Shown piece after piece: positions 39,439 through 45,576 of a DNA stretch of 64,000 bases. The stretch lies in assembly GCF_027924665.1 (NCBI RefSeq), contig NZ_AP027043.1, forward strand, positions 3,968,001 to 4,032,000, given 5' to 3'. Numbering within the stretch: the first letter of the stretch is position 1; each line of letters opens with the position of its first letter. The notes beneath the pieces were generated by a model. That model was not told the origin of the DNA and searched no databases. It was given only the letters and a program-made list of their open reading frames with translations. This DNA is from Flavobacterium sp. GSB-24. Its GTDB lineage: Bacteria > Bacteroidota > Bacteroidia > Flavobacteriales > Flavobacteriaceae. The position numbers and the translations under genes were made by a program.

Positions 39439-39830
39439 GTTGATTTGGAAAAAGATTAATTTTAAAATCAATTTCAAAATAAAAAAACGCTAGTTATTAA
39501 TAATTATTCTAAATAATATTGTACTACTAAAAAACATAACATTTTTTATAACAGATAATTAGACTAAAAAACACTTTTAAAATTGATGTGAAGTATATTC
39601 AAAAAAGGACAACAATTGCTTTTAACAGGAAAGATTGGTAAAAACATTATTCAAGGTAAATAGATTCAAAAAATATATAGTTTTTATCTAAGAAACTACT
39701 CTGATCTTAATAGTTTCAAATATCAATTATCTAAAGGATATTGTTTGGATATAAAAATTAAAATCAGCTTAAGACATTCTTAAAATTCCGAAATACTAGA
39801 TTAAAAATCCGTTTTAACAACAAATTTGTA

Positions 39831-39860: not shown

Positions 39861-39950
39861 CTTTATTTTTATTTATTCTAAATAGAGTAAAATACATATC
39901 TGAAAATAAATTTAATCTTGAATAATTCTATAACCATAAATTATCAAAAC

Positions 39951-41447
39951 ATGAAAAAGAATCTTTTCGCTTCTTTTGCATTTGCTGTTACGCTTTTTGT
40001 AAGTGCTCAGCAAAAAAATACTCTTTTAGAACAATCTTTTTGGAAAACCTCTCCAGATATCGAAACTGTTAAGGCTGAAATAGCAAAAGGAAATAATCCT
40101 TCAGAGGCAAATGCCAATGCTTTTGATGTTACAACGCTGGCAATTAATAATGATGCGCCTGTTGCAACTATTAAATTTTTAATTGAACAGCCAGGAAATT
40201 CGGTTATGAAATTAACGCACGATAATCGTATTTATTTGCATTGGGCGGCTTATAGAGGAAATACAGAATTAGTAGAATATCTTATTAATAAAGGTTCTGA
40301 TGTAAATTTTGAAGACAGCCACGGAACTACTCCTGCAGATTTCGCAGCATCAAACGGGCAGTCGAGTCCTGCGATGTATGATGCATTTTTTAAGGCTGGA
40401 GTAAATCCGACAAAAAAATATACAAATGGAGCAAACCTTTTACTTCTGGCAATTGCGTCAGATAAAGATTTAAAAGCTGCAGAATATTTCGCAACTAAAG
40501 GAATGTCTCTTAAAGATGTTGATAATGATGGAAATACTGCTTTTACATACGCTGCAAGATCTGGAAATATTCCACTTTTGAAAAAACTTTTAGAAAAAGG
40601 AATTAAACCAACAGAAACTGCACTTTTGATTGCTGCACAGGGAAGCAGAAGAGAAACTAATACAATCGAAACGTACAAATATTTGGTTGAAGAAGTAAAA
40701 ATAAAAGCAGCTGCCCAAAACAAAGCAGGACAAAATGTATTACATATTTTAGCTGGAAAACCCAATCAAACTGAAATTATCAAATACTTTTTAGGAAAAG
40801 GTGTTGATGTTAACAAAGTTGATAAAGAAGGAAATACGCCAGTTATGGCTGCTGCATCTGCAAGAGAAACTGCTGCTTTAGAACTTTTTCTTCCTAATGC
40901 AAAAAATATCAATGCTCAAAACGTAAAAGGAGAATCTGCTTTGACATATGCCGTAAGATCTGGAACTCCAGAAGCTGTAAGTCTGCTTTTAGCGAAAGGT
41001 GCAGATATTAATGTAAAAGACAAAGACGGCAATAATTTAGGAGTTTATTTAGTACAGTCTTATCGTCCTGCGGGAAAAGATAAAGATGCTCCTAAACAAG
41101 ATCCTTTTGATGCAAAAGCAAAATTACTTCAGGATAAAGGATTAAATTTGGCGGCAGCACAAAAAGACGGAAACACTCTATATCATTTAGCAATCACTAA
41201 AAATGATGTTTCTCTCCTTAAAAAAATTACTGATTTAAAAGTAGATGTAAACGTTAAAAACAAAGATGGTTTAACTGCACTGCACAGAGCGGCTATGACT
41301 TCTAAAGATGATTCGATTTTAAAATATCTTGTTTCTGTTGGAGCCAAAAAAGACATCAATACAGAATTTGACGAGACAGCTTACGCTTTGGCAAAAGAAA
41401 ATGATCTGCTTACAAAAAACAATATTTCGGTTGAATTCTTAAAGTAA
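39951..41447 (+). CDS. Exported ankyrin-repeat protein
   Basis: 498 residues from the ATG at 39951, which opens a signal peptide (MKKNLFASFAFAVTLFVSAQ); the frame can extend to a TTG at 39918 but that hides the signal. Around ten ankyrin repeats follow to the end, for example YLHWAAYRGNTELVEYLINKGSDVNFED, TAFTYAARSGNIPLLKKLLEKGI and TALHRAAMTSKDDSILKYLVSVGA. Ankyrins mediate protein contacts, so it may be a periplasmic scaffold. First gene before DUF2271, the PepSY reductase and apbE; a link to that redox system is inferred from position only. Confidence 0.88.
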   Translation: MKKNLFASFAFAVTLFVSAQQKNTLLEQSFWKTSPDIETVKAEIAKGNNPSEANANAFDVTTLAINNDAPVATIKFLIEQPGNSVMKLTHDNRIYLHWAAYRGNTELVEYLINKGSDVNFEDSHGTTPADFAASNGQSSPAMYDAFFKAGVNPTKKYTNGANLLLLAIASDKDLKAAEYFATKGMSLKDVDNDGNTAFTYAARSGNIPLLKKLLEKGIKPTETALLIAAQGSRRETNTIETYKYLVEEVKIKAAAQNKAGQNVLHILAGKPNQTEIIKYFLGKGVDVNKVDKEGNTPVMAAASARETAALELFLPNAKNINAQNVKGESALTYAVRSGTPEAVSLLLAKGADINVKDKDGNNLGVYLVQSYRPAGKDKDAPKQDPFDAKAKLLQDKGLNLAAAQKDGNTLYHLAITKNDVSLLKKITDLKVDVNVKNKDGLTALHRAAMTSKDDSILKYLVSVGAKKDINTEFDETAYALAKENDLLTKNNISVEFLK

Positions 41448-41495
41448 ATAGTTTTAAACTTCAAAAATAAAATTCCAAATTACAATTAAAAAAAT

Positions 41496-41978
41496 ATGAA
41501 ATCTATATTTAAAATTGCTCTTACAAGCGCATTTGTTTTTTTACTTTCTCTTCAATCTAATGCGCAGTCAAGCAAATATAAATGCATGCTGCAGATGAAT
41601 AATTATATGGGAGAAGGTGCATATATTGTAGTTTCACTCGTTAATGGAAACGGCGAATACGAAAAAACACTTTATGTAATGGGCGATGATAAAAAGTGGT
41701 ACAAATCATTAAAAGAATGGAACAAATTCCATACTCAAAAAAATGATGATATCAGTGCAAAAACAGGGGCATCTGTTACTGGCGGAGATCGCAGTGTGAC
41801 AACAATAGAAATTGAAAATTCTAAAATTAACAAAGGCTACAAACTACGTTTTGAAACAGCTGTTGAAGATCAAAAGTATTATGTAAGCGATCTTGAAATT
41901 CCGCTTACAACAGAAGGTTTGGCTGCTAAAACAGATGGGAAAGGCTATATTAAATACGTAAGGTTAAGCAAAATTTAA
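41496..41978 (+). CDS. DUF2271 periplasmic protein, probable FMN carrier
   Basis: 160 residues with signal peptide (ALTSAFVFLLSLQSNAQ). The body matches DUF2271 (YIVVSLVNGNGEYEKTLYVMGDDKKWYKSLKEW). Near residue 90 it has DISAKTGASVTGG; TGAS resembles the [ST]GA[ST] motif to which ApbE attaches FMN through the Thr/Ser, although the usual Asp three residues before is displaced. With apbE and a flavodoxin-reductase in the same cluster it is probably a flavinylated extracytosolic electron carrier. It lies 48 bases after the ankyrin gene. Confidence 0.8.
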   Translation: MKSIFKIALTSAFVFLLSLQSNAQSSKYKCMLQMNNYMGEGAYIVVSLVNGNGEYEKTLYVMGDDKKWYKSLKEWNKFHTQKNDDISAKTGASVTGGDRSVTTIEIENSKINKGYKLRFETAVEDQKYYVSDLEIPLTTEGLAAKTDGKGYIKYVRLSKI

Positions 41979-42048
41979 TATTCAGCATATTATTTTTTAA
42001 CCTCTATAAGCATGAATTCTATTTTTTTCTGCTTAAAATTGAAATCTG

Positions 42049-42081
42049 AGCTTTGTCAAAGTTTTTAACTTTGACAAAGCT
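42049..42081 (+). terminator. Strong hairpin inside the redox cluster
   Basis: Perfect 15-bp stem AGCTTTGTCAAAGTT / AACTTTGACAAAGCT with a three-T loop, 70 bases after DUF2271. Only a short T stretch follows, so it may terminate partially (attenuation) or stabilise the upstream mRNA. Confidence 0.6.
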
Positions 42082-42101
42082 TTAAACATTTATTACTTTT
42101 A
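42071..42101 (+). promoter_or_regulatory. Possible internal promoter before the PepSY reductase
   Basis: TTG (42071-42073), 20 bases, TACTTTTA (42094-42101), one base off consensus. The TTG is inside the right arm of the hairpin. Transcripts would be almost leaderless, with the ATG at 42111. Confidence 0.4.
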
Positions 42102-42110
42102 ATACATTCA

Positions 42111-44294
42111 ATGACTCTTTCTTTCTGGCGTTACGCACACTTGGCCCTGGCCTTATTTTCTTCTATTTTTTTGTTTTTAGCCACGGTAACCGGAATTATT
42201 CTGGCGGTCGATGCAGTGCAGGAAAAAACTCTTCCGTACAAAACTGAAAATTTTAATGAAATAACTTTAGGAGAAACTCTTCCTATTCTAAAAAAGGCTT
42301 ACCCAGAAATTACAGAATTAAGTGTTGATTACAATCAGTTTGTAACGCTTCAGGCAATTGATCAAGACGGAAATGATGTTAATGCTTATGTTGATCCCAA
42401 AACGGGAAAAGCTTTAGGAACTCCTGTAAAAAAAAGCGAATTTATTCAATGGGTTACAAGTTTTCATCGCTCGTTGTTTCTTCATGAAGCAGGACGTTTT
42501 TTTGTCGGCATAATTTCTTTTTGTTTATTACTAATTTCGCTTTCGGGTTTTGTATTGGTATTAAAGAGACAACGCGGTATTCGAAATTTCTTCTCCAAAG
42601 TAATCAAGGAATATTTCGCCCAGTATTATCATGTTGTTTTGGGGCGATTGGCTTTAATTCCAATTCTAATTATTGCATTAACAGGAACCTATTTATCGTT
42701 GGAACGATTTAACTTTTTTATGGGTGAAGAAAAAGCGAAACCTGTAAAATCTGAACTTTCAGAAAAAGACAAAACGACTTCTATATTTAAAACTACTTTA
42801 CTTTCTGATGTAAAAAAAATTGAGTTTCCTTTTACAGATGATCCTGAAGAATATTATATCATTGAATTAAAAGATCGCGAGATCGAAGTTAATCAGGTTT
42901 CTGGTGCTGTTATTTCAGAAAAACTTTCGCCGGTAACCAAACAATTTGCTGCTTTGAGCCTTGATCTTCATACAGGTAGAATTAACGGAGTCTGGGCTGT
43001 AATCTTAGCAATAGCTTGCATCAATATTTTATTCTTTATTTATTCTGGTTTTGCGATTACTTTAAAAAGAAGATCAAGCCGAATTAAAAACAAATTCACA
43101 TCTCAAGAAAGTACTTTTATTCTCTTAGTTGGCTCTGAAAACGGAAGTTCTTTTAGATTTGCTAATGCTATTCTGAAACAATTAACCGATCAAGGCTACA
43201 AGGCTTTTATTACCGAACTGAATCGTTTTTCGGTATATCCAAAGGCAGAACATATAATTGTCTTTACTTCTACTCATGGTTTAGGTGATGCGCCTTCTAA
43301 CGCAAAAAAATTCAAAGCTGTATTAGAAAAGCAAAATCAGGATCAGAAAATTAATTTTTCTGTCGTTGGTTTTGGCTCTAAAGCGTACCCAGATTTCTGT
43401 CAGTTTGCGATTGAGATCGATCAGCTTTTAGCGGCTCAAAACTGGGCAGAACGTTATTTAAGTTTACAAACCGTTAACGACAAATCGGCTGTTGAATTTG
43501 TAAACTGGATAAAATTATGGAGTGCTAAAACGGGAATTCCTTTGGCGACAACTCCTTCATTATACAATCACGTACCGAAAGGACTGCAGAAATTAATGGT
43601 TTTAGATAAGACGCCGATTTCTGATACCGAACATACTTTTATACTAACATTACGCGCTAATTCTAGGGCTAAATTTGTTTCTGGTGATTTACTGGCAATT
43701 TATCCTGCTAATGATTCTAGAAAACGCCTCTACTCTATTGGAAATCATTCTGGAAACATACAATTGGTTGTAAAACTGCATGAAAACGGATTGGGTTCTG
43801 GCTTTTTAAATAATTTGGAACCTGGAAATACGATAAAAGCTAGAATTCTTAAAAACCCTACTTTTCACCTTCCAAAGAAAGCACCAAAAGTGGCTCTCAT
43901 CTCTAACGGAACTGGAATTGCTCCTTTCCTGGGAATGATTGAACAGAATAAAGCTAAGAAGGAAATACATTTGTACAGCGGTTTTAGAATGGTAACTCCA
44001 ACGCTTTTGGCTTATAAAAAGTTTGCAAAAGTGATGATTCAAAAACAACATCTGGATCGCTTTCACGTAGCATTATCTCGTGAAGGAGCAAATATTTATG
44101 TTATGGATTTGATTCAAAAAGATGCTTCTTTTTTTATGAATTTATTAAAAGAAGGCGGTGTAATCATGATCTGTGGTTCGCTTGCCATGCAGAAAGATGT
44201 TGAAGCTGTTTTGAATGGATTGTGTCTGGAAAATGGAATTAAAAGTCTTTCTGAATACAAAGAAAATGGTCAATTATTAACGGATTGCTATTAG
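42111..44294 (+). CDS. PepSY membrane - flavodoxin - FNR fusion reductase
   Basis: 727 residues. The N-terminal 330 are a PepSY-associated membrane unit with four helices (LALFSSIFLFLATVTGIILAV; FFVGIISFCLLLISLSGFVLVL; LALIPILIIALTGTYLSL; AVILAIACINILFFIYSGFAI) and conserved His residues (FHRSLFLHEAG, YYHVVLGR, DLHTGR) that may bind haem. Then a flavodoxin domain (about 343-480, LVGSENGSSFRFANAI, STHGLGDAPSNA) and a ferredoxin-NADP reductase-like part (about 500-727, RLYSIGNHSG, NGTGIAPFLGM, MICGSLAMQKDVEAVL). It should take electrons from NADPH through flavins and pass them across the membrane to outside acceptors such as the DUF2271 carrier. Confidence 0.9.
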   Translation: MTLSFWRYAHLALALFSSIFLFLATVTGIILAVDAVQEKTLPYKTENFNEITLGETLPILKKAYPEITELSVDYNQFVTLQAIDQDGNDVNAYVDPKTGKALGTPVKKSEFIQWVTSFHRSLFLHEAGRFFVGIISFCLLLISLSGFVLVLKRQRGIRNFFSKVIKEYFAQYYHVVLGRLALIPILIIALTGTYLSLERFNFFMGEEKAKPVKSELSEKDKTTSIFKTTLLSDVKKIEFPFTDDPEEYYIIELKDREIEVNQVSGAVISEKLSPVTKQFAALSLDLHTGRINGVWAVILAIACINILFFIYSGFAITLKRRSSRIKNKFTSQESTFILLVGSENGSSFRFANAILKQLTDQGYKAFITELNRFSVYPKAEHIIVFTSTHGLGDAPSNAKKFKAVLEKQNQDQKINFSVVGFGSKAYPDFCQFAIEIDQLLAAQNWAERYLSLQTVNDKSAVEFVNWIKLWSAKTGIPLATTPSLYNHVPKGLQKLMVLDKTPISDTEHTFILTLRANSRAKFVSGDLLAIYPANDSRKRLYSIGNHSGNIQLVVKLHENGLGSGFLNNLEPGNTIKARILKNPTFHLPKKAPKVALISNGTGIAPFLGMIEQNKAKKEIHLYSGFRMVTPTLLAYKKFAKVMIQKQHLDRFHVALSREGANIYVMDLIQKDASFFMNLLKEGGVIMICGSLAMQKDVEAVLNGLCLENGIKSLSEYKENGQLLTDCY

Positions 44295-44583
44295 GATTAG
44301 ATTTTAGATTATAGATTGTAGATTGTAGATTTTGGATTTTGGATTTTGGATTTTAGACTGTAGTCCCGAAGCCTCGGGATAGATTATAGAATTTAGATCG
44401 CAATTATAAATGAATCCCAGAGGGATGACATATTTATAGATTACATTTGGTTCACACAAAGTCAAAGCTCCAGCGGAGCGACATATACAAACTACATATC
44501 GCTCTGGCGAAGCTTTAATTTGAAACGTCTAAATTATAACTATAAATATTTCGCTCCAGGGGAGCTCTAAAAAATGATTTTTT
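44295..44583. repeat. Mixed intergenic repeats incl. palindromic REP-like units
   Basis: 44300-44355 holds tandem TTTTGGA / TGTAGAT units. TCCCGA-AGCC-TCGGGA (44364-44379) is a hairpin. From 44461 three related palindromic units, AGCTCCAGCGGAGCG, CGCTCTGGCGAAGCT and CGCTCCAGGGGAGCT, stand in opposite orientations. Such elements look like dispersed intergenic repeats. No gene. Confidence 0.65.
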
Positions 44584-45576
44584 ATGCAAAAATCAATTAT
44601 AAATAAACTTTTAATTCTTTTCGTAACGGTTCAATGCTTTACAGGCTATTCGCAAGTATTACGAAAAAGAGCAACGCTCTTAATGGGCGGCCGTTTTGAT
44701 ATTAGTATTGTCGATAAAGACTCGCTTTCAGCTGAACAAAATATCGATATTGTGATTGCTGAAATTACTAGAATAGAAAACCTAATTTCGGACTGGAAAG
44801 CCGATTCTCAAATTTCTGCAGTGAATCAGAATGCGGGAATTCAACCTATAAAAGTAGATCGAGAAGTTTTTGAACTTGCCCAAAGAGCTGTTAAACTTTC
44901 TGAAATAACAAATGGCGGATTTGACGTCAGCTTTGCTGCAATGGACAGAATCTGGAAATTTGACGGTTCGATGATGGAAATGCCTTCGGCGGAAGCCATA
45001 AAAAAATCGGTTGAAAAAGTGGGTTACAAGAATATTATTTTGGACAGCACAGAATCGACTATTTTTTTGAAATTAAAAGGCATGAAAATCGGATTTGGTG
45101 CTCTCGGCGAAGGTTACGCCACTGATAAATGCCGTGCCATGATGATTGAAAAAGGCATTAAAGCCGGAATTATCAATGGTTCTGGCGATATGAGCACCTG
45201 GGGAAAACAACCCAACGGAAAGGACTGGAAAATCGGTATTACGAATCCGTTTAAACCTGAAAAAATTTTAGCTGTTGTTCCTTTAAAAGAAGGCGCTGTC
45301 ACTACTTCTGGCAGTTATGAAAAGTTTGTTGTTTTTAATGGAAAACGCTACTCCCATATTATAAATCCTGCAACTGGGTATCCCGCAATTGGTTTGTGCA
45401 GTGTAACTGTCTTTGGTCCAAACGCCGAAACGGCAAACGGATTAAGTACTTCAATGATGGTTTTAGGTCTAAAAGAAGGCTTACTGCTGCTCCAAAAATT
45501 CCCAGAATACAGCTGCGTAATAATTACTGATAAAGGAAAAGTGGTTAAGTCTAAAAATTTCTCTTATAAATTGTAA
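44584..45576 (+). CDS. apbE: FAD:protein FMN transferase (ApbE family)
   Basis: 330 residues with an N-terminal signal (LLILFVTVQCFTGYSQ), so it acts in the periplasm. ApbE motifs: MGGRFDI near the start, GFGALGEGYATDKC, NGSGDMSTWG, TTSGSYEKF and the signature YSHIINPATGYP with metal/FAD-binding residues. It transfers FMN from FAD to Thr/Ser of target proteins. The nearest candidate target is the DUF2271 protein three genes away. A repeat tract of 289 bases separates it from the PepSY reductase, so it may be transcribed separately. Confidence 0.92.
   Translation: MQKSIINKLLILFVTVQCFTGYSQVLRKRATLLMGGRFDISIVDKDSLSAEQNIDIVIAEITRIENLISDWKADSQISAVNQNAGIQPIKVDREVFELAQRAVKLSEITNGGFDVSFAAMDRIWKFDGSMMEMPSAEAIKKSVEKVGYKNIILDSTESTIFLKLKGMKIGFGALGEGYATDKCRAMMIEKGIKAGIINGSGDMSTWGKQPNGKDWKIGITNPFKPEKILAVVPLKEGAVTTSGSYEKFVVFNGKRYSHIINPATGYPAIGLCSVTVFGPNAETANGLSTSMMVLGLKEGLLLLQKFPEYSCVIITDKGKVVKSKNFSYKL

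Follow-up and report, generated by a model that had tools for sequence, protein, structure and literature searches.

Which acceptor is served by a periplasmic flavin relay whose genes stand beside that of an exported ankyrin-repeat protein (ANK), and what is the ankyrin protein for? The question is raised by a stretch of 64,000 nucleotides from Flavobacterium sp. GSB-24 (contig NZ_AP027043.1, positions 3,968,001 to 4,032,000), called here the window, in which four open reading frames (ORFs) form a cassette:

39951-41447, + strand: ANK, ankyrin-repeat protein of 498 amino acids (aa) counted from the ATG (Pfam Ank_2, E 1e-50)
41496-41978, + strand: DUF2271 protein, 160 aa (PF10029, E 1.1e-37, 129 bits against a cut-off of 27)
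42111-44294, + strand: fusion of PepSY_TM, Flavodoxin_1, FAD_binding_6 and NAD_binding_1 by Pfam, 727 aa (PF03929, E 1e-36)
44584-45576, + strand: ApbE, the flavin adenine dinucleotide (FAD):protein flavin mononucleotide (FMN) transferase, 330 aa (PF02424, E 7e-78)

All four frames are open, and the ORFs and Pfam matches agree with the first-pass annotation, which had described an ankyrin protein, DUF2271, a PepSY-flavodoxin-FNR fusion and ApbE as consecutive genes on one strand. The listed ANK frame begins upstream of its ATG, at a TTG at 39918. Hydrophobic, signal-peptide-like N-terminal stretches, judged by eye, occur in ANK, DUF2271 and ApbE; ANK and ApbE are predicted to be exported and DUF2271 to be a periplasmic FMN carrier. 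A PF03929 protein, DUF2271 and ApbE stand together in one cluster, the combination that characterizes PepSY-like flavinylation clusters. The window genome carries one DUF2271, four ApbEs (the cassette copy included) and five PepSY_TM proteins above cut-off, and its DUF2271 is 99% identical to that of the nearest relative (L070).

The favoured answer, to which a probability of about 70% is given, is that the cassette is a flavin-based reductive iron-uptake unit, in which an NADPH-driven relay reduces ferric siderophores with ANK as a docking part. In the diflavin part of the fusion, cytosolic NADPH would reduce first the FAD and then the FMN. Electrons would cross the inner membrane via haems placed, by comparison with the family, on conserved PepSY_TM histidines, and would reach the FMN set covalently by ApbE on Ser93 of periplasmic DUF2271. 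The recipient of electrons from DUF2271 in the periplasm would be a ferric siderophore or iron just freed from one; a TonB receptor system of the XusA/XusB type would import the ferric siderophore to that compartment and reduction would release Fe2+. ANK would most likely hold DUF2271, perhaps at the flexible loop of the motif, close to either the PepSY domain or the receptor side, and the operon would be switched on at low iron.

The row of genes is not due to chance: its order is kept among close relatives and, largely, in several families. Two samples were used. The first comprises 80 named loci, nearly all from Flavobacterium and close kin of one another. For the second, PF10029 was searched in 296 genomes of the phylum (22 above cut-off, matches under it being left out) and in 395 genomes of the class (31 above cut-off). 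The 39 DUF2271 regions fetched comprise 27 stand-alone loci drawn from several families, five ApbE fusions, six proteins with a type IX secretion system (T9SS) tail, and L063, kept out of these classes as phmmer did not detect its DUF2271 frame; the G531 region is not included. Conserved co-occurrence of the families was the test on which the first-pass annotation had staked its reading, and it was found: the order ANK, DUF2271, PepSY-Flv-FNR is kept in 80/80 named loci, with ApbE present in all of them and the next listed ORF in 78. A PepSY-Flv(-FNR) gene lies near DUF2271 on the same strand in 26/27 stand-alone loci, the L059 fusion being devoid of the NAD part, and the ANK family adjoins DUF2271 in 23/27, at a spacing of -4 (overlap, seen in L053, L055 and L061) to 135 bases. 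Among the four exceptions, L059 has three shorter ANK-like ORFs instead, the L049 region opens on a contig end, and no ANK adjoins DUF2271 in L048 or L062. The L048 gene (L048:9784-10275), the second DUF2271 of genome G182, bears VGET in place of the acceptor motif, stands without a PepSY partner and is likely a diverged paralogue. In L033, a 228-aa ORF on the same strand (L033:9091-9777) separates DUF2271 from the PepSY fusion, and L124 holds a tandem second cassette, with a second ANK and DUF2271 after receptor and lipoprotein genes.

The association also holds when searched from the ankyrin side. With a profile built from cassette ANKs and the first three candidates per genome scored, a design that a diverged copy elsewhere could escape, 19 of the 395 class genomes match at 1e-30 and 16 at E <1e-130. 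All 16 of these orthologues adjoin DUF2271 by coordinates; 15 cover nearly the whole model and that of G580 spans positions 3-350. Of the other three matches, G323 is the genome whose cassette has the shorter ANK-like ORFs; the remaining two, G380 and G489, match at 1e-30 and fall outside the set of DUF2271 genomes. Among the 18 class genomes with a strong stand-alone DUF2271 (E <1e-28, frame <200 aa), ANK is found in 16, short ORFs in G323 and neither in G436. ANK is a near-constant cassette partner in the Bacteroidota sampled.

Related cassettes are also found on plasmids. In those of Citrobacter, Hoeflea, Shinella and Janthinobacterium, DUF2271 is followed by a PepSY gene, and a small PepSY protein is encoded upstream, at a distance of one or two genes. 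The PepSY_TM-flavodoxin-NAD fusion was verified for two of the PepSY proteins; the Janthinobacterium gene is short and lies ahead of an IS66 element, and in Hoeflea ApbE adjoins the PepSY gene. A fifth record, from Cupriavidus, has no annotation. No ANK is annotated within 5 kilobases (kb) of these four proteobacterial cassettes, in gene tables incomplete by their own description. The plasmid of Spirosoma, a member of the Bacteroidota, has in turn a TonB receptor, ANK, DUF2271 and PepSY, then ApbE 4 kb on. Because of this distribution, DUF2271 and the fusion look like an old core to which ANK would be a Bacteroidota addition.

The flavinylation core itself is already known, since the available text of Meheust et al. 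2021 (PMC8238504) shows DUF2271 flavinylation and ties PepSY clusters to iron. There, DUF2271 acceptor sites are defined as [S/T]GA[S/T], and the Amantichitinum DUF2271 is flavinylated by its cognate ApbE, the modification being lost when the acceptor Thr is replaced by Ala. DUF2271 is described as frequent in PepSY clusters (2833 clusters), of which a subset bears NAD-binding domains and TonB receptors, with a proposed role in iron; such clusters are reported as Fur-repressed in two species, and the discussion proposes that flavinylated relays make up a third class of electron carriers outside the cytosol. The first-pass annotation had noted that surveys of ApbE targets link DUF2271 and PepSY proteins to flavinylation, in agreement with this source. 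In the available text of PMC8238504, no test of the electron acceptor of DUF2271/PepSY systems was found, and the word "ankyrin" is nowhere in its main text. The window DUF2271 carries the motif as TGAS at residues 90-93, with Ser93 as predicted acceptor, and [S/T]GA[S/T] is kept in 24/27 stand-alone DUF2271s (absent in L048, L054 and L061). Its structural model consists of beta strands with a predicted local distance difference test (pLDDT) score of 76, falling to <50 over residues 65-90, directly before the motif. By analogy with the published proteins, a covalent FMN on the Flavobacterium copy is a well-supported prediction.

In the fusion, four histidines (H10, H119, H174 and H287) are invariant in 27/27 PepSY domains, and the C-terminal half matches NADPH-P450 reductases (E 2e-21). 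The PepSY profile matches weakly (E 7.5e-4) the structure 7abw of the PDB, which we take to be the siderophore reductase FoxB. Histidines of 7abw are matched to H119 and H174 in the significant stretch, H287 is aligned only in a non-significant stretch and H10 lies outside the alignment. The flavinylation proposed in the first-pass annotation is thus supported for the family by TGAS, by these histidines and by the available text of PMC8238504. Its path from NADPH to a flavoprotein, then through PepSY (probably haem) to a periplasmic FMN carrier, is backed by the domains and the invariant histidines, with haem and the electron path as putative elements.

The first-pass annotation left the terminal acceptor and the ankyrin member unexplained, two points that can now be addressed by indirect evidence. 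The likely acceptor is a ferric siderophore, because XusA/XusB-like neighbours occur in many related loci and a Fur-like box precedes the operon. XusABC is a xenosiderophore system of Bacteroides. In the stretch covered around each cassette, an XusA-like TonB receptor is found in 40 of the 80 named loci and a DUF4374/XusB-like lipoprotein in 39, and both occur as a pair in 6/27 diverse loci belonging to three families (f1, f3, f5). The receptor matches over its full length 9gbc_A, a TonB-linked receptor with a DUF4374 protein (E 8e-83), and the lipoprotein profile matches a DUF4374 protein (hhalign probability 97) that itself matches 9hqe, named XusB in the PDB. Forty DUF2271 genomes gave 11 lipoprotein matches, six of them within 10 kb of DUF2271; in the 395 class genomes the lipoprotein was found in ten, three of which have it in the cassette.

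Upstream of ANK, the following elements are found, none with an assigned strand:

39494..39516 (G000:C1:4007494-4007516): Fur-like palindrome 1, two mismatches to TTATTTAGANTNNTTCTAAATAA, both strands
39863-39885: Fur-like element 2, three mismatches to the TTATTTAGANTNNTTCTAAATAA pattern
39873-39890: 18-base palindrome TTATTCTAAATAGAGTAA, overlapping Fur-like element 2, 60 bases before the ANK ATG

The core TCTAAAT, which was picked with an earlier result in view, a point that counts against it, is present in the 250 bases that precede ANK in 79/81 copies of the 80 named loci and in 16/24 diverse copies, and upstream of 15/25 TonB receptors like the query ones versus 14/130 control genes. Twenty-one places bearing the double half-site in the window genome were read: five head TonB receptor genes and one is the window's own. 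One of the five belongs to the XusA-like gene and lies within the listed frame, just before an internal ATG; further sites stand ahead of hemA, a sigma factor, DUF4198, DUF6607 (divergent from one of the receptor genes) and a class-V aminotransferase, SufS-like in our reading. Coordinates put a place of this kind within ~4 kb upstream of each of the genome's four PepSY_TM loci. The name Fur is used since some of the genes sharing the pattern are of iron type (TonB receptors, hemA), and the palindrome is a putative Fur box.

Two further observations concern these sites. DUF6607 stands directly before ANK in L053 and L054, beside the motif-less DUF2271 in L048 and, in the window genome, opposite a divergent TonB receptor gene, a Fur-like box lying in the interval (L257). 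The second-best genome match of the 18-base palindrome falls just after the DUF3570 gene of another ApbE operon (L159, G000:C1:4514407), possibly by chance.

Several facts weigh against iron uptake through a siderophore receptor. Half of the 80 named loci are without the receptor pair in the stretch covered, the window itself has no matching receptor, so that the receptor and lipoprotein that share an operon in XusABC are not together here, and the cassette-type lipoprotein is absent from the window genome. Searched by itself, this lipoprotein retrieves neither a Pfam family above cut-off nor a PDB chain. When all matched TonB receptors are counted, 10/27 loci have one near the cassette versus 3/20 control stretches, a weak and not decisive difference, several of the query receptors having been taken from the tested loci themselves. 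As to the operator, a 9-base form of the core is found at 14/25 receptors, 10/24 diverse ANKs and 1/130 controls, and upstream of only 12/81 ANK copies in the named loci. The double half-site, sought in the window genome as a new test, has 35 matches at 25 places there, as against 15 when the pattern is reversed; among the 21 places read, 11 are within genes or without an evident tie to iron. For DUF2271, sequence searches gave no relative of solved structure and fold comparison no strong match, and a limited literature search found no experiment on an ANK-bearing cassette member.

These facts leave room for an alternative which is unlikely, though the strongest of those considered: the electron path would be the same, with free Fe3+, haem, copper, peroxide or quinone as acceptor, and the receptors would be neighbours only through common iron regulation. 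Such a reading is favoured by the receptor-free window locus and by the four annotated proteobacterial plasmid cassettes, which have no TonB receptor within 5 kb and of which that of Citrobacter lies near a VIT1/CCC1 gene and that of Janthinobacterium near a CusA/CzcA gene. It accounts poorly, however, for the recurrence of one specific receptor-lipoprotein pair in three families and about half of the named loci, and for the presence of another PepSY_TM gene near three of the eight pairs found away from the cassette (L150, L153, L155). Reduction of ferric siderophores is thus retained as the preferred reading.

The window genome holds elsewhere an XusABC-like operon (L206, G000:C1:4266001-4277000), with a TonB receptor, a DUF4374 lipoprotein, PepSY_TM and a divergent AraC-type regulator. 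Its receptor, which adjoins the DUF4374 protein and a plain PepSY_TM, shares 33% identity with the cassette-type receptor.

ANK is modelled with a pLDDT of 91.5 as helical repeats along residues 28-489. The constancy of its partner and this kind of fold are the two grounds for a docking role, and ANK, which is typical of the Bacteroidota form, most likely serves for docking in the periplasm. AnkB of Pseudomonas is reportedly a periplasmic ankyrin acting as a redox-stress or catalase-type partner, and a similar function for the cassette ANK, instead of docking in an iron reductase, would find some echo in the glutathione peroxidase encoded ~5 kb from DUF2271 on the Spirosoma plasmid. This is improbable, as 16/16 orthologues in the 395 genomes (E <1e-130) adjoin DUF2271 and no catalase is present among the named neighbours, although only a small part of the neighbours is named.

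The ApbE of the cassette belongs to a distinct group. ApbE lies beside the cassette in 16/27 stand-alone loci and in the window, on the same strand in 12/16, and the 17/17 cassette-linked ApbEs fall into one clade (support 100/100). The closest neighbours of this clade are ApbEs from DUF3570 operons, and the ApbEs of NQR-like operons are distant; the operon labels were assigned from ORF sizes and positions, with DUF3570 Pfam-confirmed on one protein. In the tree of the fusion proteins, a branch (100/99) separates the 17 linked cassettes from the 10 unlinked ones, which include other genera of the window's own family. The motif Asp is kept in 1/17 linked DUF2271s versus 11/11 unlinked (L048 included); at this position, the third residue ahead of the TGAS Thr, 16/17 linked cassettes have Ser or Ala, and TGAS is kept in 17/17. 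The linked ApbE and the lack of the motif Asp count as one evolutionary event, not many. More tentatively, a relative of DUF3570-type ApbEs may have been recruited once in Bacteroidota, with a DxxTGAT-like motif becoming SxxTGAS, so as to form a flavinylation pair of its own, which would operate alongside the cell's remaining ApbEs and independently of them, ANK being the dedicated holder of the flavin carrier. That DUF2271 of the linked clade would be a flavin-free binding protein, an idea raised by the acceptor motif without Asp (Ser or Ala at that position in those 16 cassettes), is very improbable given the intact TGAS, the linked ApbE of a single clade and published sites defined, in the available text of PMC8238504, as [S/T]GA[S/T].

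Other arrangements of ApbE and its targets were met in the same genomes. ApbE-DUF2271 fusions, also mentioned in the available text of PMC8238504, are followed by a PepSY_TM_like_2-type gene in L043, L045, L057, L058 and L060 (Pfam applied to L043), with a variable motif ending in AT in 5/5. In L064-L069 (for example L064:9709-10497 and L069:9712-10533), DUF2271-like proteins of 262-283 aa keep [S/T]GAT and a C-terminal type IX secretion tail in 6/6, L069 being slightly under the Pfam cut-off; their genes adjoin, or lie one gene from, the sole ApbE of each genome, which points to flavoproteins that T9SS would deliver to the cell surface. In DUF3570 operons (L207-L222 minus L215, window genome included), the DUF3570-type protein beside ApbE bears [ST]GGxG[ST][EQ] in 14/15 (not L219) and no [S/T]GA[S/T] in 14/15 (all except L211), versus two such motifs published for DUF3570 in the available text of PMC8238504.

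With the flavinylation core known, what is new is its Bacteroidota form with ANK, XusA/XusB-like neighbours, Fur-like boxes and a single ApbE clade. The neighbours and the iron-type operator point to an acceptor for the DUF2271/PepSY relay, in a group where tractable laboratory species are found; all cassette members are present, for instance, on the johnsoniae contig L094. An exported ankyrin protein gains a defined partner, and the ApbE clade may exemplify joint change in a post-translational enzyme and the motif that it targets.

The cassette shares with the PepSY-like flavinylation clusters, as described in the available text of PMC8238504, a PepSY protein, DUF2271 and ApbE, as well as an NAD-binding domain in a subset and TonB receptors in a few, but it differs from them by its near-constant ANK, its flavodoxin and FAD/NAD(P)H reductase as cytosolic part, its recurrent XusA/XusB-like pair and its linked ApbE of a single clade. 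Flavodoxin and FAD/NAD(P)H domains are common to the fusion and to NADPH-cytochrome P450 reductase and CysJ, whereas in the cassette this diflavin part is fused behind a PepSY_TM membrane domain. The FoxB-type reductase 7abw resembles it by the PepSY_TM membrane part and by two shared histidines in the weakly matched stretch, but with 382 aa it is too short for the cytosolic reductase found in the fusion. The XusC-type protein is a PepSY_TM alone. XusABC and many of the related cassette loci have in common the same receptor and lipoprotein families next to a PepSY_TM protein, whereas in the cassette the fused diflavin reductase, DUF2271, ApbE and ANK replace the XusC-type PepSY_TM.

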